Positions 3,350-42,529 of a stretch of DNA of 64,000 nucleotides are shown one piece after another. A program made the translations under genes and the position numbers. The DNA lies in contig JAQYVY010000012.1 of NCBI GenBank assembly GCA_030145195.1, positions 1 to 64,000 on the forward strand, given 5' to 3'. The number at the start of each line of letters is the position of its first letter. The stretch's first letter is position 1. The notes beneath the pieces were generated by a model. It searched no databases, was not told the DNA's origin, and saw nothing but the letters and a program-made list of their open reading frames with translations. The stretch comes from Desulfuromonadales bacterium. GTDB taxonomy: Bacteria > Desulfobacterota > Desulfuromonadia > Desulfuromonadales > BM103.

Positions 3350-3588
3350 CTGGTTTCTGCGTCCTTTTCGTTAAATTATTGTTTTTATTTAAAGGATAAA
3401 CCGGCGGGTCGCGTCCCGCCAAGACATCGTACTTTTTTCAACGCCAAAAAAGTAAGCAAAAAGGCTGCTAGCGGAGGGCGTATTCTTTTGCCGGGGTTCA
3501 GTGGTTTCAATGAGCGGTGGCCTTGGGAATCCGGCCCGTTACAGGGGGCCTACCTGTGGGTGAGTTCTACTGTGTGAAAAGCTTTGGA
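3350..3588. repeat. Modular dispersed repeat, copy 1 (most complete)
   Basis: Modules in order are CTGCGTCCTTTTCGTTAAAT (3359-3378), a GGCGGGTCGCGTCCCGCC palindrome (3403-3420), ACTTTTTTCAACGCC-AAAAAAGTAAGC (3431-3457) which is itself a hairpin, and CGGCCCGTTACAGGGGGCCT (near 3532). Parts of the same set recur at 4572-4776, 8040-8235 and 8327-8431. Similar intergenic repeats are known in several proteobacteria; their function is not established. No gene lies in 3295-3632. Confidence 0.7.
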
Positions 3589-3632
3589 GTTTATGAATAA
3601 CTCCATTTGAGTGCCCCCGATCGCTATTGCTG

Positions 3633-4406
3633 TTAATACAGAAAATGCTTAATCCTTTCTCCCTTTTCACCGATCTCAGTCATCGCATTAATTCCAATCT
3701 TCAAGTGGCTGTCAGCCCAATTTTGAGTGACCATCTGATCCGATTCCTCCGTTTTGACCCCCTCTGGGGTGAGGGGCACATCCGAGACCAGCAACAGCGC
3801 ACCACGAGCGATGACATTGTAGTGGCCGACGATAAAGATCGTTGCGGTTTCCATGTCGATGCCGATACTGCTCATCTTTTGGAGTTTTTCCCGAAACGCC
3901 TGGTCGTGCTCCCAGATGCGTCGATTGGTCGAGTAAACCACGCCCGTTCGGTAATCGTGACCAAGTTCGAGGATCTTCTCGGAAACAAATTTGTGCAGTT
4001 TGAACGAGGGTAGCGCAGGGACTTCGGCAGGGAAATAATCGTTACTGGTGCCCTCGCCGCGAATTGCGGCATTCGGCAGGATGAAGTGTCCAATCTCGGA
4101 TGATTTCTTCAACCCTCCGCATTTACCGAGAAACAGCACGCCCTTAGGATTGATGGCGCTCAGCAGGTCCATGATCGTGGCTGCGTTCGCGGAGCCTATG
4201 CCGAAGTTGACAATGGTCAGGCCGTCACTGTTGGTTGTTGCCTGCATCGGTTTGTTCTCTCCCTGGATATCGCAGGAGAACATGTTTGCGAACATATCGA
4301 TATAGTGTCGGAAGTTGGTTAGCAAAATGTACTCGCCAAAGTTATCGAGCGGCATTCCGGTGTAGCGGGGCAACCAGTTTTTGGTAATCTGCAGACGGTC
4401 GACCAT
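3633..4406 (-). CDS. AMP nucleosidase-like protein (short, TIGR01721-type)
   Basis: The 257-residue protein begins MVDRLQITKNWLPRYTGMPL and contains FGEYILLTNFRHYIDMFA, typical of the short AMP-nucleosidase-like family, then a PNP/UDP phosphorylase fold with VNFGIGSANAATIMDLL (phosphate-site glycines), LFLGKCGGL and GIDMETATIF (nucleoside-site Met-Glu). The expected reaction is AMP + water to adenine + ribose 5-phosphate, in the cytoplasm. The reading frame is open further upstream to 4571, but the ATG at 4406 has an AGAAGGAG site and matches family starts. The gene stands alone and is bracketed by GGGGACACTCAA repeats and modular repeats, which suggests it was inserted or that the repeats target its flanks. 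Confidence 0.85.
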   Translation of the reverse strand: MVDRLQITKNWLPRYTGMPLDNFGEYILLTNFRHYIDMFANMFSCDIQGENKPMQATTNSDGLTIVNFGIGSANAATIMDLLSAINPKGVLFLGKCGGLKKSSEIGHFILPNAAIRGEGTSNDYFPAEVPALPSFKLHKFVSEKILELGHDYRTGVVYSTNRRIWEHDQAFREKLQKMSSIGIDMETATIFIVGHYNVIARGALLLVSDVPLTPEGVKTEESDQMVTQNWADSHLKIGINAMTEIGEKGERIKHFLY

Positions 4407-33993: not shown

Positions 33994-35277
33994 TCATTGA
34001 TAGTCCGACAGACTGCTAGGATTTTCCACCGTGACGAGATGCACCGCACAGGAAATGCACGGGTCATAGGCGCGAACAATTCGTTCTGCCACCTCTCGCA
34101 ACCGGGCATGATCCTTTTCATCGGTCAGGTCAGCCATGATTTGGGCGGCGATGACCCGTTGATTGAGTGCAGTTGGAGTGACAATGTCAGCGGCCACAAT
34201 CGTTCCCCATTCATCAATGACATAGTGATGGAGCAACAAGCCGCGCGGAGCTTCCATTGCCGCTGTCCCAATGCCACCTTGCATTTGCGCCAAGTCGGTT
34301 CGTAATGGCTCGGAGCGGCTTGCCCGGAGCAAGGTCTCAAGCAGTTGGCCGACCCGGTGCAAGGCCCAGCCGACTTCCTTGACCTGTGCAAGGTTGTTGC
34401 CGTGGATGCCATGATGATCAGCCAGCGCATTGCGGCTTATGTTTCTGCCGGTCGCAAGGCGGTCTCGTGCCAGAGCCCCAGTCAGAAAAGGACCCGCTTT
34501 GCCGGTGGCATCCTTGGCATGTGTGTCTGGCCTGGGGCGCTCAGCGAAGAGTTGCGCATAGTCGGAAGCGGCGATGACGTTATCGTTTCCATACCATAAG
34601 CAATCACCGGTCAAGGCAAATTCATCCTGTAAACCGGTCGCAACCGCGGTGCCAATGACCGGACTTGCCTCCGGGTAGTTGTCGAGCTGTAACAATCGCG
34701 CCGAAAAGTCCGGCCAGTCCCGTTGCCAGCAAAGCAGTTCTTTTGCAAGTTTTTCGAGTTCATCATGCCCCGGCTGGTAGGCAATGCCGCCGAAAACCGG
34801 GTTAACCGGATGGATCACCCGGCCACCGGCAATTTTCTGAATCCGGTTGCCAAAGGCTTTCAAATCGAGCCCGGCCTGTGCCAGAGGGACTTTCTGTCGC
34901 AGCAATTCTATGATATCGGGAGTGCCATAAAGATCCGGCAGGATCAAACAGAACAGGTGCAGTGCATGGCTCTGAATATGTCCACCCAGCAGCAGCAGCT
35001 CACGGTATGCAGCAGCAAGCGGCGGGATTTTGACCGCCATGGCGTTCTCGATCGCCTGCAGGGCGGTCACTTTATGTGTTGCCGAGCAGATCGCGCAAAT
35101 ACGGCTGATCAGATCCGGCACCTCATCGCAGCGACGACCGACCACCAGTGCTTCAAACAGGCGCGGGGCTTCGAGCAGCCGCACTGTGACGTCAACCAGC
35201 TTTCCGTCTCTAAGCTGTAGTTCAACCCGGCCGTGCCCCTCGACTCGGGTTAAAGGGTCAACCACCAGCCGGATCAT
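33994..35277 (-). CDS. hydA: [NiFe] hydrogenase large subunit, soluble group 3 type
   Basis: The 427-residue protein carries both nickel-ligand motifs: RICAICSATHK (Cys61, Cys64) and DPCISCAVH (Cys407, Cys410). The last 14 residues after His413 would be clipped by a maturation protease, as in the family. The N-terminus DPLTRVEGHGRVEL is typical. Length and partners fit the soluble bidirectional (group 3b, sulfhydrogenase-like) enzymes rather than membrane-bound uptake types. It holds the Ni-Fe centre for H2 oxidation or production. Its start overlaps the small-subunit stop (ATGA). No hyp or protease genes are in the window, so maturation genes must lie elsewhere. Confidence 0.92.
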   Translation of the reverse strand: MIRLVVDPLTRVEGHGRVELQLRDGKLVDVTVRLLEAPRLFEALVVGRRCDEVPDLISRICAICSATHKVTALQAIENAMAVKIPPLAAAYRELLLLGGHIQSHALHLFCLILPDLYGTPDIIELLRQKVPLAQAGLDLKAFGNRIQKIAGGRVIHPVNPVFGGIAYQPGHDELEKLAKELLCWQRDWPDFSARLLQLDNYPEASPVIGTAVATGLQDEFALTGDCLWYGNDNVIAASDYAQLFAERPRPDTHAKDATGKAGPFLTGALARDRLATGRNISRNALADHHGIHGNNLAQVKEVGWALHRVGQLLETLLRASRSEPLRTDLAQMQGGIGTAAMEAPRGLLLHHYVIDEWGTIVAADIVTPTALNQRVIAAQIMADLTDEKDHARLREVAERIVRAYDPCISCAVHLVTVENPSSLSDYQ

Positions 35278-36017
35278 AGCGCTGCTCCAAAACGTTCCAA
35301 CCGGTGGCGGATTTCCTGTTCCGAAAGGCCCGCAGTGATGAACAAACGGTATAATTCATCCCGGTTCGCCTCTGGTACGACCCCCCGGCAACCTTCACAA
35401 GGCACGCCAAGTCCCGGGCACAAGGCATCACAGCCCGCTTGCGTGATCGGCCCAAGGCAGGGCGCGCAGTCCTCTTCCAACAAACAGCGATTTTCGTTGA
35501 TCCGACATTCCATACAGACCGGCATGACTTGGTGGCTGGGCCAGCCGCCATGCAGAATCGCGGCAATCGCCTGCAAAAGCTCGTGCGGTTCAGGCGGGCA
35601 GCCGGGAATCTGGCCGTCGACTTTGACAAAATGATGAATTGGTTGTGGCGGAAACGTATCCCACTCGGCCCCGGCTTTGCCGTAGATCGATACCATGGCC
35701 TTGTGGCGCTCACCTTTGACCATGGCATTGACGCCCCCAGTCAGAGCACAGGCACCGACAGCGACCAGCAGACGGCTCTTGCGACGAATTGCCAGCAGGC
35801 GTTCAACTTCACCAGGAGAGGTCAGAGAGCCCTCCACCAATGCGACATCGAGAGCCTCGGCGTTGCCGCACGCGGAAGAAAGCAAGGGGAAATTGTGAAG
35901 TTCAACGACGTGCGCCAGTTCTGCCAGCGAGTCTTCGTTGTTGAGCAAGGTCAGTTGACAGCCGCTGCAGGAGGTAAAACGCAACCAGGCAAGCTTGATC
36001 GGCGGGACAAATTTCAT
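35274..36017 (-). CDS. hydD: [NiFe] hydrogenase small subunit
   Basis: The 247-residue protein starts KLAWLRFTSCSGCQLTLLN, with the proximal cluster Cys pair, then DVALVEGSLTSPGE, VAVGACALTGGVNAM and GQIPGCPPEPHELL. A later Cys-rich region (VCMECRINENRCLLEEDCAPCLGP in total; CMECRINENRC and CLGPITQAGC are parts) fits additional 4Fe-4S clusters. There is no twin-arginine signal, so the enzyme is cytoplasmic. It passes electrons from the Ni-Fe site to the HydB/HydG half. ATGA overlaps link it to both neighbours. Confidence 0.92.
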   Translation of the reverse strand: MKFVPPIKLAWLRFTSCSGCQLTLLNNEDSLAELAHVVELHNFPLLSSACGNAEALDVALVEGSLTSPGEVERLLAIRRKSRLLVAVGACALTGGVNAMVKGERHKAMVSIYGKAGAEWDTFPPQPIHHFVKVDGQIPGCPPEPHELLQAIAAILHGGWPSHQVMPVCMECRINENRCLLEEDCAPCLGPITQAGCDALCPGLGVPCEGCRGVVPEANRDELYRLFITAGLSEQEIRHRLERFGAAL

Positions 36018-36838
36018 ATCGCCCCCACCATGCCGCGCAACTCTTCAAGAGAGAAGACCGGCCCGTCCTTACAGAGGTAGCGTCCACCAACAACACAGTG
36101 ACAGCACTCGCCGATGCCGCAGCGCATGCGCCGTTCGAGGGTCGCAAAAATTGTGGCTGGCGCCAGGCCAATCGCGGCCAGCTCTTCGAGCACGCAACGA
36201 TAAAGGGCTGGTGGACCGCAGACCGCAGCCACAGTTTTGCTCGGATTGAAATCAAGGTCGGCAAGAAGCTCATTGACCAGACCGATTCGGCAGAAGACCC
36301 CGGCAGCAGGACCAGGCAGAGTTTCGGCGAAGTCGACTGAGAAGCGAAGCTCAATACGCCCCCGTCTTGCTAGCGCAATCAGTTCCTCGCGAAAAAGCAA
36401 AGCCCCCGGTTCGCGCGAACCGTAGAGTAAAATAATCTTGTCCGGATGCAGGTCGTTGAGCAGTGCTTGCAACAGGGCCCGCAACGGTGCCATGCCGAGA
36501 CCACCGGCAATCAGCAAGGCCTCCCGGCCGTCAAACATTTCAAGCGGAAAGCCATTACCAAACGGGCCGCGCAGACCAATTGTGTCGCCAACCTCAAGTT
36601 GATAGAGAGCTTCGGTCACGCGACCAACCCGGCGAATGCAGCAACTGAGGAGCTCCTCGTCAACGAGATCACAGGCGGAGACCGGGAAACCGCCGACTCC
36701 GGGGATGCTGATCTCGACAAACTGCCCCGGGCTCAGTTCGATCGGTTGTTCCGGACGAAATACGAAGAGATGATTGTCGACAACCATTGGCTTGATAGCC
36801 TCGATAATAGCGGGCACTGGCAGTAGGGAACAGGTCAT
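36014..36838 (-). CDS. hydG: Hydrogenase gamma subunit (FAD/NAD(P)-binding, [2Fe-2S])
   Basis: The 274-residue protein has a ferredoxin-reductase fold: an FAD-binding barrel (FVEISIPGVGGFPVSA), NAD(P)-domain glycines (LLIAGGLGMAPLRALL, ILLYGSREPGALLF) and a C-terminal [2Fe-2S] site of the dihydroorotate-dehydrogenase-electron-subunit type (MRCGIGECCHCVVGGRYLC). It exchanges electrons between the hydrogenase clusters and NAD(P)H. ATG 36838 overlaps the hydB stop by ATGA; the frame upstream is a shadow. This gene is not the radical-SAM HydG of [FeFe] hydrogenases. Confidence 0.9.
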   Translation of the reverse strand: MTCSLLPVPAIIEAIKPMVVDNHLFVFRPEQPIELSPGQFVEISIPGVGGFPVSACDLVDEELLSCCIRRVGRVTEALYQLEVGDTIGLRGPFGNGFPLEMFDGREALLIAGGLGMAPLRALLQALLNDLHPDKIILLYGSREPGALLFREELIALARRGRIELRFSVDFAETLPGPAAGVFCRIGLVNELLADLDFNPSKTVAAVCGPPALYRCVLEELAAIGLAPATIFATLERRMRCGIGECCHCVVGGRYLCKDGPVFSLEELRGMVGAI

Positions 36839-37788
36839 GAGCCTTCTTCCCCCTTCAGCCTGGCGGCTATTTGGTCGAGGTCGATGTCGACCGGACAGGC
36901 TTTGCGGCAGCGGCCACAACCGACGCAGGAATTCTGTCCCCGCAAGGAGCCAAAGCCGAAAAATTTATGTTCCATGCGGAACCGTAGCCGGGCGGCACGT
37001 CCAGGCCGGAAATCATAACCTCCCGCGACCTTGCCGTGTTCGGCGAAGAAACAGTTGTCCCAGATGCGGCTTCGACTGACGGTTCCGTCGAGGGCGGCGT
37101 CATCCAGCATGTCGAAGCAGTAGCAGGTCGGGCAGACCGCTGAGCAGGCTCCGCAGGAGAGACAGTGGCTGGCTGCCTCTGCCCAGACGGGGGCGTCGCT
37201 AGCGGCCGCATACTGCTCCGGCGTGATCGCGGGCCGCTGCGCGGTCATGCCGACCGGCCATGGCAAAGGGCCCTCTGCTTGGCTTGTGCAACCGCAGGCA
37301 TGCAACACCGCCTCACCGGCTGTCGAGAGCGCCCAGGCTTGTTCCTGATCAATAAAAATATCGCCGGCTAAGGGCATCAAGGCCTGGTCACAACGACAGT
37401 TCGAGTCCGGTTCACAGGGCATGCCCACCAGAAAACGGTTGGCTCTTCGCGTTTGATAGCTCTCGTCTGCGGCGAAAACCTGGTCAAGATACCAGACCGC
37501 CTGCAACTCACAGAGCGTCACGCCGACAACCGCAAACGGTCCAGTCATTTCAGCCGCTCGAAAGCGGCCAGATTGATAGCGCCAAACCGTTTCGCGGTAC
37601 GGCAGCAGCAGCTTTTTCAAAGGGATCATTGTCGGCTGGGCCAAGGCCGGGAATGGCCCAGCGCCGATCGTCTGCAACCGACAGATGCCGTCTTTACCAA
37701 GACAGGGCGCCCAGAGGTTCCGGGCCTGTCCGAGGGAGCTCAGTAGTTTTTCGCGGAGCGTGTGTTCCAACGGGTCACCAAAAATCAA
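36835..37788 (-). CDS. hydB: Hydrogenase beta subunit (4Fe-4S)
   Basis: The 317-residue protein resembles the beta subunit of sulfhydrogenases and the anaerobic sulfite reductase A subunit: GVTLCELQAVWYLDQVF, MPCEPDSNCRCD, and two ferredoxin-like motifs, CLSCGACSAVCPTCYC (about 213-228) and CVGCGRCRKACPVD (about 291-304). It relays electrons between HydD and HydG. The first in-frame start is TTG 37788, with GAGG 12 nt before it; no better ATG gives a full protein. It is the first gene of the hydBGDA operon, and is divergent from the Usp gene across 164 bp. Confidence 0.88.
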   Translation of the reverse strand: MIFGDPLEHTLREKLLSSLGQARNLWAPCLGKDGICRLQTIGAGPFPALAQPTMIPLKKLLLPYRETVWRYQSGRFRAAEMTGPFAVVGVTLCELQAVWYLDQVFAADESYQTRRANRFLVGMPCEPDSNCRCDQALMPLAGDIFIDQEQAWALSTAGEAVLHACGCTSQAEGPLPWPVGMTAQRPAITPEQYAAASDAPVWAEAASHCLSCGACSAVCPTCYCFDMLDDAALDGTVSRSRIWDNCFFAEHGKVAGGYDFRPGRAARLRFRMEHKFFGFGSLRGQNSCVGCGRCRKACPVDIDLDQIAARLKGEEGS

Positions 37789-37952
37789 CGTTGTTAAAAA
37801 CCTCTAAGCACAAGTCTAACACTCATCACCCCAGCGGCAACAACCAGAGCTTTAGCTGGTCATAAATTATGGCAAAGATATCAAGGCGCGGCAAAGATGC
37901 ATTTGCAGAGGGAAGGGTTATAATTTTTCGGAGGACTTAAGGAGGCGGTGGC

Positions 37953-38789
37953 ATGATCATTCTGGCTCACGACGGATCGATTTATGGCGACTGGGTCGCG
38001 CGTTATGCGTTGCGGTTTGCCGCTGACGAAGCTGACCGCAAGTTGCTGGTGCTGCATGTCCTGGACGGAAAGATCAACCCTGATCTGGCCGCGGCAAAGC
38101 TAGCCAAGATTGAGGAGGTCTGCCAGCAAGCCGAGGTGGAATGCCTCACGCGGTTGTTGCCTCTCGGTAAAACGGTCCACCGCAGCTTGCGCCAAGCGAT
38201 CCCCCACGACCCAGAGGCCTTGTTGGTTTGCGGCACTCGGGTCAAAGCTAACAAACGATCATTTCTGAGCGGATCCGTTGCGGAACAACTGCTGCGCATG
38301 CACCAGTGTCCGGTGCTGGCATTGCGGGTCGTGCAGCCCGGACTGCTTGGCAACCCCCATGAACTGTTGGTGCCGCTGGCCGGACATTTGGGAGGATTCT
38401 CCCGCATCTGGCCGGTCTTTCGACGTTTAGCTGCGCATTTGCGTCTCGTGCACTTGTTTCGGGCGGTGGCCATCAATCCGCTGCTGCAGAATCGTCTGAC
38501 TCCGGCTCGTAAACAGACTCTGCGCCAAATTGGCCAGGCACACCTGAGCAAGATTTCTGCCGAACTGGAAGAGCTATTGCCAGAGCGGCCCTTTCGTTTG
38601 CATCAAAACATCGTCATTACTACGGAATGGCCCCATGAAATTATGACGTTGGCCAGTCGGCTCAAGGTGCAGATGTTGCTGTTGGGGGTGAGTGAGCGTA
38701 GCCTTGCTCACCGCATTTTCCATAGCGCGGGCATTGAGCAAATTCTGCGCGAAACACCATGCGATATCGGGATTTATCGCGGACCATGA
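37953..38789 (+). CDS. Universal stress protein, two-domain
   Basis: The 278-residue protein consists of two Usp-type domains. The first (1-130) starts MIILAHDGSIYGDWVARYALRFA and ends GSVAEQLLRMHQCPVLALR, close to the ATP-binding G-x2-G-x9-GS pattern. The second (about 140-278) is more diverged and ends HSAGIEQILRETPCDIGIYR. ATG 37953 follows AAGGAGG. A TATAAT at 37919-37924 may be the -10 box. Its stop overlaps the start of the P-type ATPase by ATGA, so the two are translated together; this Usp may sense ATP or regulate that pump, which is inference. Confidence 0.88.
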   Translation: MIILAHDGSIYGDWVARYALRFAADEADRKLLVLHVLDGKINPDLAAAKLAKIEEVCQQAEVECLTRLLPLGKTVHRSLRQAIPHDPEALLVCGTRVKANKRSFLSGSVAEQLLRMHQCPVLALRVVQPGLLGNPHELLVPLAGHLGGFSRIWPVFRRLAAHLRLVHLFRAVAINPLLQNRLTPARKQTLRQIGQAHLSKISAELEELLPERPFRLHQNIVITTEWPHEIMTLASRLKVQMLLLGVSERSLAHRIFHSAGIEQILRETPCDIGIYRGP

Positions 38790-41470
38790 AGGTACACAGG
38801 CAAATTCAGAATCTGCCCGTGGCGGAGGTCTATCACGCTTTAGCGAGTGATGCCGGGGGGCTGACCCCTGCGGAAGCGGCTGATCGCCTGCGCGAGGTGG
38901 GTCGCAACAGCGTCGAGGTGAGCGACCCTTGGCGACTGCTACGCAGCCTGATGCGTCAATTTACCAATTTCTTCACGTTGTTGTTGTTTGCCTCAGCGGG
39001 AATCTGTTTTGTCGCTGAGGCCCTGCAGGCCGGCCAGAGCATGTTGGTGCTGGGCTGGGCTCTATCCGGGGTGGCGTTGCTTAACGCGCTATTCAGTTTT
39101 GTTCAGGAATATCGTGCCGAACGAGCGATGGAGGCTTTGCGCCAGTTCTTGCCGCCCATGGTTCAAGTGGTACGGGGTGGCCAAACGCAGTCTTTGCTCA
39201 GCGAGGAATTGGTGCCGGGGGATGTGTTGCTACTTCAGGAGGGGGATCGAGTTCCGGCTGACACGCGTTTGGTCTCTGTGGAAGATTTGGTGATCAACAA
39301 CGCGCCATTGACCGGCGAATCCTTGCCGGTCGCGTTGACGGCAGAACCGGTTGACCGGCGACTGGTGGAGAGCAACAACATCGCCTTTGCTGGCTGTCTG
39401 GTGCTGCGCGGTCGTGGCCAAGCGGTGGTCTTTGCCACCGGTCTGCGTACCGAATTCGGCAAGCTGGCCCACCTTTCCCAGGCGATCCGACGCACCCCTT
39501 CGCCATTGCAGCGGCAAACCTCGCACATGGTCCGAGTCCTGACGTTTATCGCGGTGAGCTTAGGGCTATGTTTTTTCCTCTACGGGGTGTTCAGCGGCCG
39601 CTCCCTCTGGGTCAATCTGGTCTTTATGATGGGCATTATCGTGGCCAATGTGCCTGAAGGGCTGTTGCCGACCTTCACCCTGGCCCTGGCCCTTGGCAGC
39701 CAGCGAATGGCCCGCCGAAACGTGCTGGTCACCAACTTGAATGCGGTCGAGTCGCTCGGGGCCGTTCAGGTGATCTGCACCGACAAAACCGGCACCTTGA
39801 CCCACAACCAGCTTGCGGTCACCCGCTTGATGCCTGGTGGTACTGGACCAGAGTTCAGCAATCCGCAGGAACGTCAGCGGCTGCTTGAGTTGGCACTTTG
39901 TGCATCGCAAGTCCGTCAGGTCGATCAGAGCTACAGCGGAGACCCGCTGGATGTTGCTATTGTCGAGCGAATTGTTGCTGAAAGCGGCAAGGTCGAACCG
40001 GCGCTGCTCGATATCCGCAAACACTTCCCCTTCGATGTCGAAAAGAAGCGAGCGGCTGGTCTCGGCCTCGTTGCTGGGCAGCAGGTTTTCGCGGTTAAAG
40101 GGGCCTGGGAAGTTTTGCGCCCGATGTTGAGTGGACTTGATTCCGGCCACGGCACAACTCTGGCTGCAGATCCGGCCAGTCTGGATCGGGCCGAGGGCGC
40201 TATGACCACGCTGGCTGCGACAGGCTTTCGGGTGGTTGCGGTCGCCTACCGCTCAATCGAAGCGGAAGCAGACCTTGAGTTAACCCAAGACCATTTGGAA
40301 GACAACTTGATCCTGGCTGGCTTCCTTGGAATCGAGGATCCGCTGCGTGAAGAGGTGCCTGCGGCCCTGGCCAGTTGCCATACCGCTGGTATCGAGGTGA
40401 TTCTGATTACCGGTGATCATCCTGATACCGCGGTGAGCGTTGCCACCCGCTGCGGTCTCATTGACCCGCAAGCCTCAGCCGAAGTGGTCATGACCGGCGA
40501 GGTGCTGGAGTCCTTGAGTGAAGCCGCACTGGCCGAGTCATTAGCGGCCGGGGTTCGCATCTTCGCCCGCACCAGCCCGGCCCAGAAAATGAAGATTGTC
40601 ATGGCGCTCAAGGGCATGGACCGCGTCGTCGCCATGACCGGTGACGGCGTCAACGATGCCCCGGCCCTCAAGGCTGCCGACATAGGGATTGCTATGGGCA
40701 AAAGCGGCACAGACGTGGCCCGCGCCTCCGCGCAGATTATCCTGCTTGATGACAATTTCGCCTCAATCGTCGCGGGCATCGAAGAGGGCCGCACGGTTTT
40801 TAACAATATCCGAAAATTTACCAATTACGTGCTGGTCAGTAACGGCCCGGAAATTCTACCTTATCTTCTTTATATCCTCTTCCCGGTGCCTTTGGCCTTA
40901 ACGGTTATCCAGATTCTCTCCATTGATCTCGGCACCGACATCATACCCTCGATGGCGCTTGGACAGGAACCGCCCGACCCGGAATCGATGCGACAGCCCC
41001 CCCGGGGTCAGGAGTTCCGGTTGCTTAGCTCTGGCTTGGTGATCCACAGCTACCTGTTTCTCGGTGCCCTGGAGGCGCTCTGGTCGCTCGGTCTGTTCTT
41101 CTATGTTTTGCATGCTGGTGGCTGGCACTGGGGAATGGAGCTGGCGGCGGATAATCCTCTTTATCGGTCGGCAACCGGGATTGCCCTGGCCACCATTCTG
41201 CTGATGCAGATTGGCAATCTGATCGGGCGCAGGTCTACAAATCTCTCGGGGCTTGATCGGGGAATTTTCAGGAACCGACTGATGTTGGCCGGGATCATGA
41301 TCCAGGTTTTTTTTTCCTGGGGGTTGTTGTACCTGCCGCCGCTCCAGAAAATTTTGGGGACCGGACCGGTCAATGCTTCGATTTATCTGGTCGCGTGGCT
41401 GGGTGTGCCACTCATCTTTGGCGCGGATTACCTGCGGAAACGGCTACGGCCAAGGGCGGCTCAACACTGA
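38786..41470 (+). CDS. P-type cation-transporting ATPase, P2C-like
   Basis: The 894-residue pump has the cation-ATPase N-terminal domain (VAEVYHALASDAGGLTPAEA), actuator TGES (near 176), phosphorylation site CTDKTGTLT (Asp333), hinge MTGDGVNDAPALK and ten membrane helices. Its ion-site motifs resemble Na+/K+-ATPase alpha: IVANVPEGLLPT in helix 4, VSNGPEILPYLLY in helix 5 and IDLGTDIIPSMALGQE in helix 6. In animal Na+/K+-ATPase the same helices read VANVPEGLL, SNIPE and DLGTDMVP. That suggests Na+ or K+ rather than Ca2+ as the ion, without a beta subunit gene nearby. It is in the inner membrane. ATG 38786 sits in an ATGA overlap with the Usp gene. Confidence 0.88.
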   Translation: MKVHRQIQNLPVAEVYHALASDAGGLTPAEAADRLREVGRNSVEVSDPWRLLRSLMRQFTNFFTLLLFASAGICFVAEALQAGQSMLVLGWALSGVALLNALFSFVQEYRAERAMEALRQFLPPMVQVVRGGQTQSLLSEELVPGDVLLLQEGDRVPADTRLVSVEDLVINNAPLTGESLPVALTAEPVDRRLVESNNIAFAGCLVLRGRGQAVVFATGLRTEFGKLAHLSQAIRRTPSPLQRQTSHMVRVLTFIAVSLGLCFFLYGVFSGRSLWVNLVFMMGIIVANVPEGLLPTFTLALALGSQRMARRNVLVTNLNAVESLGAVQVICTDKTGTLTHNQLAVTRLMPGGTGPEFSNPQERQRLLELALCASQVRQVDQSYSGDPLDVAIVERIVAESGKVEPALLDIRKHFPFDVEKKRAAGLGLVAGQQVFAVKGAWEVLRPMLSGLDSGHGTTLAADPASLDRAEGAMTTLAATGFRVVAVAYRSIEAEADLELTQDHLEDNLILAGFLGIEDPLREEVPAALASCHTAGIEVILITGDHPDTAVSVATRCGLIDPQASAEVVMTGEVLESLSEAALAESLAAGVRIFARTSPAQKMKIVMALKGMDRVVAMTGDGVNDAPALKAADIGIAMGKSGTDVARASAQIILLDDNFASIVAGIEEGRTVFNNIRKFTNYVLVSNGPEILPYLLYILFPVPLALTVIQILSIDLGTDIIPSMALGQEPPDPESMRQPPRGQEFRLLSSGLVIHSYLFLGALEALWSLGLFFYVLHAGGWHWGMELAADNPLYRSATGIALATILLMQIGNLIGRRSTNLSGLDRGIFRNRLMLAGIMIQVFFSWGLLYLPPLQKILGTGPVNASIYLVAWLGVPLIFGADYLRKRLRPRAAQH

Positions 41471-41702
41471 CGGTTCCCGGTTTATGGTGGACTCCTCGAA
41501 ACTATTTAATGAGTTCGCGCCCGTCGTAATCGAGCAAAAATTGCGCATCCCTTTGCCGCTAAATGGCGATGCCGGCCTTTCCCCTTTGCGCAAACCCCTA
41601 GAATAACTCAATAGCAATATCGGCACACAAAATGCAGTATTTAATACCATGTGAGGTCTTTGTCCTAACTGTTTTAGTCATTGTTTGCAGAAAGGCTGTA
41701 TC

Positions 41703-42101
41703 ATGCGGGTTTATGTTTTTGATGATGACCCCTCGCTACTTAACTTGTTGACTTTGTATTTGGCGAACAAAGGTCATCAGGTTCAGGGTTTTTTACATAA
41801 ATATAGTTGTCCTCTCTACCAGTTGGATAGCTGCATCTGCCCCGTGGACGAACCATGTGCCGAGGCGGTTATTGTTAACACTCGGGTCGCGAATAAGGAG
41901 AGCCTTAACGTCCTCATTGATCAAGACCAAAAGGGTTGTAAGCTGCTTCGATTAAACAAGGCCGTAATGAGTGCCAATGTGACCGAGGCCCAAGAGGGTT
42001 TTATTCGGGACCAAGGTTTTTCCGTGCTCAAGAAACCCTTCCGCTTGACGACGGTCACCTCCTGGCTTGATGCTTGTGATGAGCGTTTAAACCATCTTTA
42101 A
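41703..42101 (+). CDS. Degenerate response-regulator receiver domain with Cys cluster
   Basis: The 132-residue single-domain protein begins MRVYVFDDDPSLLNLLTLYL with the acidic pair of receiver domains, and keeps Ser90 (VMSANVTEAQ) and the Lys-Pro of VLKKPFRL. At the position of the phosphorylatable Asp it has Asn59 (AVIVNTRV). An extra stretch, YSCPLYQLDSCICPVDEPC, brings four cysteines (36, 44, 46, 52) between strand 2 and strand 3. It may bind metal or form disulphides and signal without phosphorylation. ATG 41703 follows AGAAAGG; the frame extends to 41685. It follows the ATPase after 232 bp and has its own terminator. Confidence 0.75.
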   Translation: MRVYVFDDDPSLLNLLTLYLANKGHQVQGFLHKYSCPLYQLDSCICPVDEPCAEAVIVNTRVANKESLNVLIDQDQKGCKLLRLNKAVMSANVTEAQEGFIRDQGFSVLKKPFRLTTVTSWLDACDERLNHL

Positions 42102-42185: not shown

Positions 42186-42216
42186 GGCCACCGGGCAAAA
42201 AGCTGGTGGCCTTTTT
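42186..42216 (+). terminator. Rho-independent terminator of the receiver gene
   Basis: GGCCACC (42186-42192) pairs with GGTGGCC (42205-42211) and is followed by TTTTT. It is 85 bp beyond the stop codon. Confidence 0.8.
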
Positions 42217-42394: not shown

Positions 42395-42529
42395 CCCGAA
42401 AGATAACGCTCATTGGGCGCGATTTATGGCTGACCAGCTGTAATTTTTGGAATATCATGTTTGTCGATGAAACCTCCGATAACGGCCAGGTTGATCGGCC
42501 ACCAGCTTTTATTATCAAGGAAAAACAGC

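Follow-up and report, generated by a model that had tools for sequence, protein, structure and literature searches.

A predicted stand-alone pseudo-receiver with asparagine at the phosphorylation site belongs to a cysteine-bearing receiver family of Desulfuromonas relatives

The window analyzed here is a 64,000-nt stretch of contig JAQYVY010000012.1 from a Desulfuromonadales bacterium, and at positions 41703-42101 of its plus strand it encodes a stand-alone receiver-like protein in an open frame of 132 amino acids plus stop. Asparagine (Asn59) takes the place of the phospho-accepting aspartate, and the protein carries a set of cysteines that it has in common with a larger family of mostly aspartate-bearing receivers. 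As read from aligned members, the cysteine site (C46, C52 and C79 plus C36 and/or C44; in this protein also C125) outlasts phosphorylation chemistry in that family. We propose that the protein is a stand-alone pseudo-receiver in which a Cys-ligated Fe-S or zinc site would be the input and partner binding the output, a reading drawn from sequence and from analogy to which we give about an even chance. Somewhat less confidently, we suggest that the stand-alone receivers of Desulfuromonas relatives could have a built-in Fe-S/redox site as a second input, which would be the sole input in several lineages, the window's included; if this were true, the receiver itself would be the sensor in the lineages that dropped phosphorylation.

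A probable ribosome-binding site, AGAAAGG, can be read just 5' of the ATG (41689-41695), and the coding sequence is followed by a weak terminator-like hairpin with TTTTT after it (42186-42211), which on its own is not above chance (one found, mean of 1.0 in shuffles); these and the residues of the gene listed next are on the plus strand. The sequence-only reading of this DNA had described a receiver in which the acidic pair, the Ser/Thr switch and Lys-Pro are kept, the phosphorylation site is Asn, and a four-cysteine insert lies just before it. All of these are present in the translated frame: the acidic pair D8-D9 (41724-41729), S90 at the switch position (41970-41972), K111-P112 (42033-42038), and C36-x7-C44-x-C46-x5-C52 between strands 2 and 3 (41808-41858), directly before strand 3. 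The codon at the phospho-Asp position is AAC (Asn59, 41877-41879), and Asn is found there in all six distinct proteins aligned. There are two cysteines beyond the four described before: C125 in the last helix (42075-42077) and C79 in the helix 3-strand 4 loop of the model (41937-41939), the latter being one of the three that the family conserves best. The MPxxxG loop after the phospho-site is lost in the window protein.

Assignment to the receivers rests on the relatives of the protein and on its predicted fold, because the single sequence matched no Pfam family at E 10, PF00072 included, and its NCBIfam matches, mostly response regulators, were weak and far below cut-off (best E 0.0054). A phmmer search of PDB chains with the window protein likewise gave no match at E 10. 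Among its relatives, 25 of 34 family rows matched PF00072 at E 0.01, and the profile of those 34 rows matched 162 distinct PDB sequences at E <= 0.001, the 60 listed being receivers plus one de novo design. An AlphaFold2 model built on a two-row alignment (mean pLDDT 65.9, pTM 0.66) has five strands and five helices, with helix 2, within the Cys segment, shrunk to a low-confidence turn at residues 38-41. Both Cys stretches, 33-50 and 74-82, fall below pLDDT 50, and the model therefore gives no geometry of the Cys site. The best Foldseek match of the model was the PhoP receiver (E 7.4e-7), and the 50 listed of 197 matches at E <= 0.001 were receivers or response regulators except for one pilus-assembly-related protein. 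The protein is thus predicted to have the (beta-alpha)5 fold of the PF00072 superfamily; the phospho-accepting Asp of PF00072 is replaced by an Asn that is conserved in orthologues. On the strength of the model it would count as a pseudo-receiver, that is, a receiver fold without a key catalytic residue. It resembles CheY, Spo0F and DivK (PF00072) in the predicted fold and in the positions of the acidic pair, Ser/Thr and Lys-Pro, and differs from them in having Asn for Asp and a Cys segment replacing helix 2, and in lying below Pfam detection. The 3.4 Mb of its own genome contain 91 matches to PF00072 at E <= 0.001, none of which is the window protein.

When 136 genomes of the order were searched with the profile of the Asn proteins, six places scored 212-237 bits and the next one 146 bits. 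In the five closest distinct relatives, which are 47-59% identical to the window protein, Asn59 and all six cysteines are invariant. The orthologue alignment (A1) has seven rows that represent six distinct proteins (L006 and L009 are one contig), and 30 of its 132 columns are invariant, including N59 and the six cysteines; random choice of columns would place all six cysteines among these 30 with p about 9e-5, a value to be read with the caveat that Cys changes slowly anyway. Asn59 is invariant in six distinct proteins, and so neither an isolated mutation nor an error of sequencing accounts for it. Other catalytic residues have decayed in the Asn clade (L071 has QN at the acidic pair, N90 and Q111, L069 has C90, and L076 has KD at the acidic pair), and the cysteines from C36 to C79 are kept despite this decay. 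One further candidate relative, L007, was dropped; its match was only 20 residues long and it had no match with the family profile.

The same profile of Asn proteins matched 68 of the 136 genomes of the order at E <= 1e-15. Of 395 genomes sampled from the phylum, at least 14 matched the family profile at E <= 1e-16, a lower bound in that 10 candidates per genome were scored; seven of the 14 belong to the window's own order, its own genome included. No family relatives were found in the viral contigs searched, and the plasmids searched gave no match at E 0.01. From 118 rows, 115 were distinct and 111 were kept, after removal of identical copies and of four ordinary receivers without the motif (L127, L143, L147 and L159). 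Also outside the set are 28 rows of the order search: three that are interrupted by an internal stop (G118:C17, G108:C126 and G064:C69), and the 25 lowest-scoring of those located on no fetched stretch. C46 is present in all 111 members, C52 and C79 in 109 each, C36 in 90, C44 in 63 and C125 in 55, with the reservation that these frequencies are inflated, since the profiles that gathered the family contain the cysteines. At least one of C36 and C44 is present in 107 members and neither in four, and their joint loss is rarer than independence predicts (Fisher p 0.015, uncorrected for kinship). By this comparison conservation is strongest in C46, C52 and C79 together with C36 and/or C44. At site 59, the family has 97 Asp, eight Asn, three Ser, two Gly and one Thr; profile A1 holds Asn at this site and so does not favor Asp. 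The window's own genome has two Cys-bearing paralogues, one on C26 and one on C65, both with Asp; an Asp paralogue on C26 spans 3350-3736.

As a control, 34 receiver domains were aligned on 29 of the 30 best PF00072 loci of the same genome: 32 have Asp at the site, one has Glu and one a gap, two or more cysteines between strands 2 and 3 occur in one of the 34, and Cys at column 46 and at column 79 in two each. The earlier reading would have been contradicted by near relatives with a normal Asp and no cysteines; none was found, and near relatives that bear Asp carry cysteines as well. The homologue search that it called for found the Cys pattern and Asn conserved together in orthologues, and its interpretation, a phosphorylation-independent signaling module that may sense metal or redox state, stands to this extent: joint conservation of Asn and Cys fits a module of this kind with a functional Cys site. 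One point has to be revised: the Asn protein is not alone in having the cysteines, which are the mark of a larger, mostly Asp-bearing family. We found no description of a family of Cys-bearing stand-alone receivers, or of the Cys pattern, in the open-access PMC papers searched.

A quick tree of the 111 members was calculated from 129 columns with column 59 excluded, and it is poorly resolved, with 49 of its 108 inner branches open. One group (SH-aLRT 94) unites seven of the eight Asn proteins with L087, in which the site is Asp but its surroundings are degenerate; L076, the sister of L087, has Asn. The remaining Asn protein (L153) falls elsewhere on the tree, as do the Ser, Gly and Thr members. 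Asp versus not-Asp requires at least six changes, of which the Asp of L087 may be a reversal. Because there are at least six changes, C46, C52 and C79 are retained in all 14 members without Asp, and the acidic pair, Ser90 or Lys111 is altered in several of those members, our reading of the tree is that phosphorylation was lost repeatedly and the Cys site retained. L082 (G019:C258) and L101 (G014:C100) belong to a second Asp-less lineage, in which Ser occupies the site (SNRMAKMSG) and the six cysteines are all present, and in G019 this Ser-type receiver is present in two copies on one contig.

The strongest precedent for cysteines in such a protein is FixT of Caulobacter crescentus. In the part of the FixT report drawn on here (PMC7078487), this single-domain receiver, which has never been seen phosphorylated, inhibits autophosphorylation of FixL, its residues C53, C56, C59 and C64 bind an O2-sensitive Fe-S cluster, and a mutant in all of its cysteines is inactive. 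FixT with and without the cluster inhibits FixL alike in vitro, and the role shown for the cluster is protection from Lon; in 2020 the authors called this control of a receiver by Fe-S a first (PMC7078487). Caulobacter FixT and the window protein are both stand-alone receivers that have a cysteine cluster and no effector domain; their spacings differ, C53-x2-C56-x2-C59-x4-C64 in FixT as against C-x7-C-x-C-x5-C plus C79 here. The FixT of S. meliloti, which was read from pSymA beside FixJ and confirmed by matches annotated fixT, has one Cys directly before putative strand 3, and for this reason it is probable that the Caulobacter motif occupies the segment that holds the cysteines of the window protein. 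In a MAFFT alignment the S. meliloti Cys aligns with C46 of the window protein, not with C52, and a gap opens after it. The family profile (A2) matched S. meliloti FixT at E 0.24 versus 2.5e-8 for FixJ; a specific sequence relation to S. meliloti FixT was not found, Caulobacter FixT being compared by description. Since the family is by sequence no closer to FixT than to FixJ, we liken the window protein to FixT and do not call it one: it may work like FixT, the tie being one of anatomy.

Receivers without the phospho-Asp are known in their own right. In the portions of two sources used here, Asp-less receivers or pseudo-receivers have a receiver fold without the phospho-Asp, as the window protein is predicted to have (PMC4395418, PMC12632262). 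Asn is the second commonest substitute for the phospho-Asp among them, at 16% (PMC4395418), and RitR also has Asn, as the window protein does. As direct controls of pseudo-receivers, the part seen of a 2025 review names ligands, covalent modification, and multimer state through single-Cys disulphides; that review states that the switching mechanisms of bacterial pseudo-receivers remain a mystery but lists a few direct ones, and FixT, Fe-S and iron do not occur in its main text (PMC12632262).

If the conservation pattern and the FixT precedent are taken together, the Cys site may bind metal or sense redox state. In the mechanism we propose, the cysteines would bind an Fe-S cluster or, as a second choice, zinc. 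The site would be placed at the end of the sheet far from the old active site: in the topology of the fold, strand 3 starts and helix 3 finishes at the sheet end away from the active site, and with C52 and C79 both at that end a common site is plausible. The state of this site, instead of a phosphate on Asp, would set the shape or stability of the protein, which, like FixT, would then act through a partner that it binds, most probably a histidine kinase; sigma-54 may drive its expression. Because one Cys site is common to Asp-bearing and Asp-less members, its role can be tested with and without phosphorylation, and if it were an Fe-S site, Fe-S control of receivers would reach beyond the phylum of FixT to an entire family in another one.

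The cysteines could also be purely structural, forming a zinc knot that takes the place of helix 2 and fastens the loop to strand 4 in a protein that is a constitutive binding partner and senses nothing. A Cys4 zinc site could well be made up of C46, C52 and C79 with either C36 or C44, and the 97 members that keep Asp may be ordinary phospho-receivers, in which the Cys site need not sense. We nevertheless hold a purely structural knot to be rather unlikely. Five or six cysteines in the window protein appear to be more than a Cys4 site needs, and one orthologue (L006) comes from a Desulfuromonas genome; in anaerobes of this kind an Fe-S site would be stable. FixT, which is the nearest precedent found, carries Fe-S in the part of its description used here (PMC7078487).

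It is improbable, in our judgment, that the protein is still a phospho-receiver, either through deamidation of Asn59 to Asp in the cell or through phosphorylation of another residue. The window protein retains the acidic pair, Ser90 and Lys111, L087 within the Asn clade has Asp, and Asn-to-Asp reversion has been reported in a receiver (PMC4395418, consulted in part); on the other hand, the MPxxxG loop is lost in the window protein, and the acidic pair, Ser90 or Lys111 is gone in some orthologues. The drift of active-site residues in the Asn clade, and the fact that no recurrent partner gene was found around the orthologues or the family, could also be taken for the decay of a paralogue in which function went with the Asp and the cysteines are there only because they were inherited. 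This we find very hard to credit, given an open frame in all six distinct orthologues at 47-59% identity, 30 invariant columns that include all cysteines and Asn59, and an upstream element common to five of the six.

A search for a shared operon partner near the Asn orthologues and L076/L087 found none; the genes that recur there do so in pairs and are distant matches of common families: a glutamine amidotransferase (31%), an RND pump pair (24-25%), an ABC ATPase (30%) and receivers. In the whole family, apart from the receiver-containing cluster, the largest recurrent neighbor group comprises nine loci, mostly from one genus. Of the 111 members, 10 have a histidine kinase frame within 400 bp; all 10 bear Asp, and none of the 14 Asp-less members has such a frame, counts that are too few to conclude from and that come from stretches of different length. 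No FixL or FixJ was recognized by eye among the frames around the window gene. In genome G064 (L071:9429-16283), an Asn-type and an Asp-type Cys receiver adjoin on opposite strands, near genes that by eye resemble CheA, CheY and a chemoreceptor. Upstream of the receiver in the window (33994-41470) are frames that by eye resemble NiFe hydrogenase genes on the minus strand and then, on the plus strand, genes for a universal stress protein and a P-type ATPase. Among frames of at least 80 amino acids, the gene-like frame upstream ends at 41470 and the next same-strand frames downstream begin at 42457-42461, so that the receiver gene seems to stand alone and is apparently transcribed alone.

A sigma-54-like -24/-12 element, CGGCACACAAAATGCA (41621-41636, plus strand), with the GG-N10-GC of the sigma-54 promoter consensus, lies upstream of the gene. 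The form YGGCAY-N5-ATGCA is found 72-82 bp upstream of the start used in five of the six core Asn orthologues (it is absent in L070), a count made in the very orthologue sequences from which the motif was derived. It has one match in the window (0.18 expected) and six genome-wide versus three for a reversed control, and the window's own sigma-54 score has p 0.025 against shuffles. rpoN is present in the genome, and from the shared element we infer that sigma-54 may drive the gene. In the upstream stretches of the family, nine of 109 reach p 0.02 (2.2 expected), and scores of at least 14 occur in 7.3% of them versus 2.3% of 300 random stretches; on these counts the element was rejected as a mark of the whole family. 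One of the other five genome matches (L215:1530, in L215:1456-2093) is about 74 bp before an ATG of a receiver gene, the C-terminal part of which we take to be an ANTAR-like domain.
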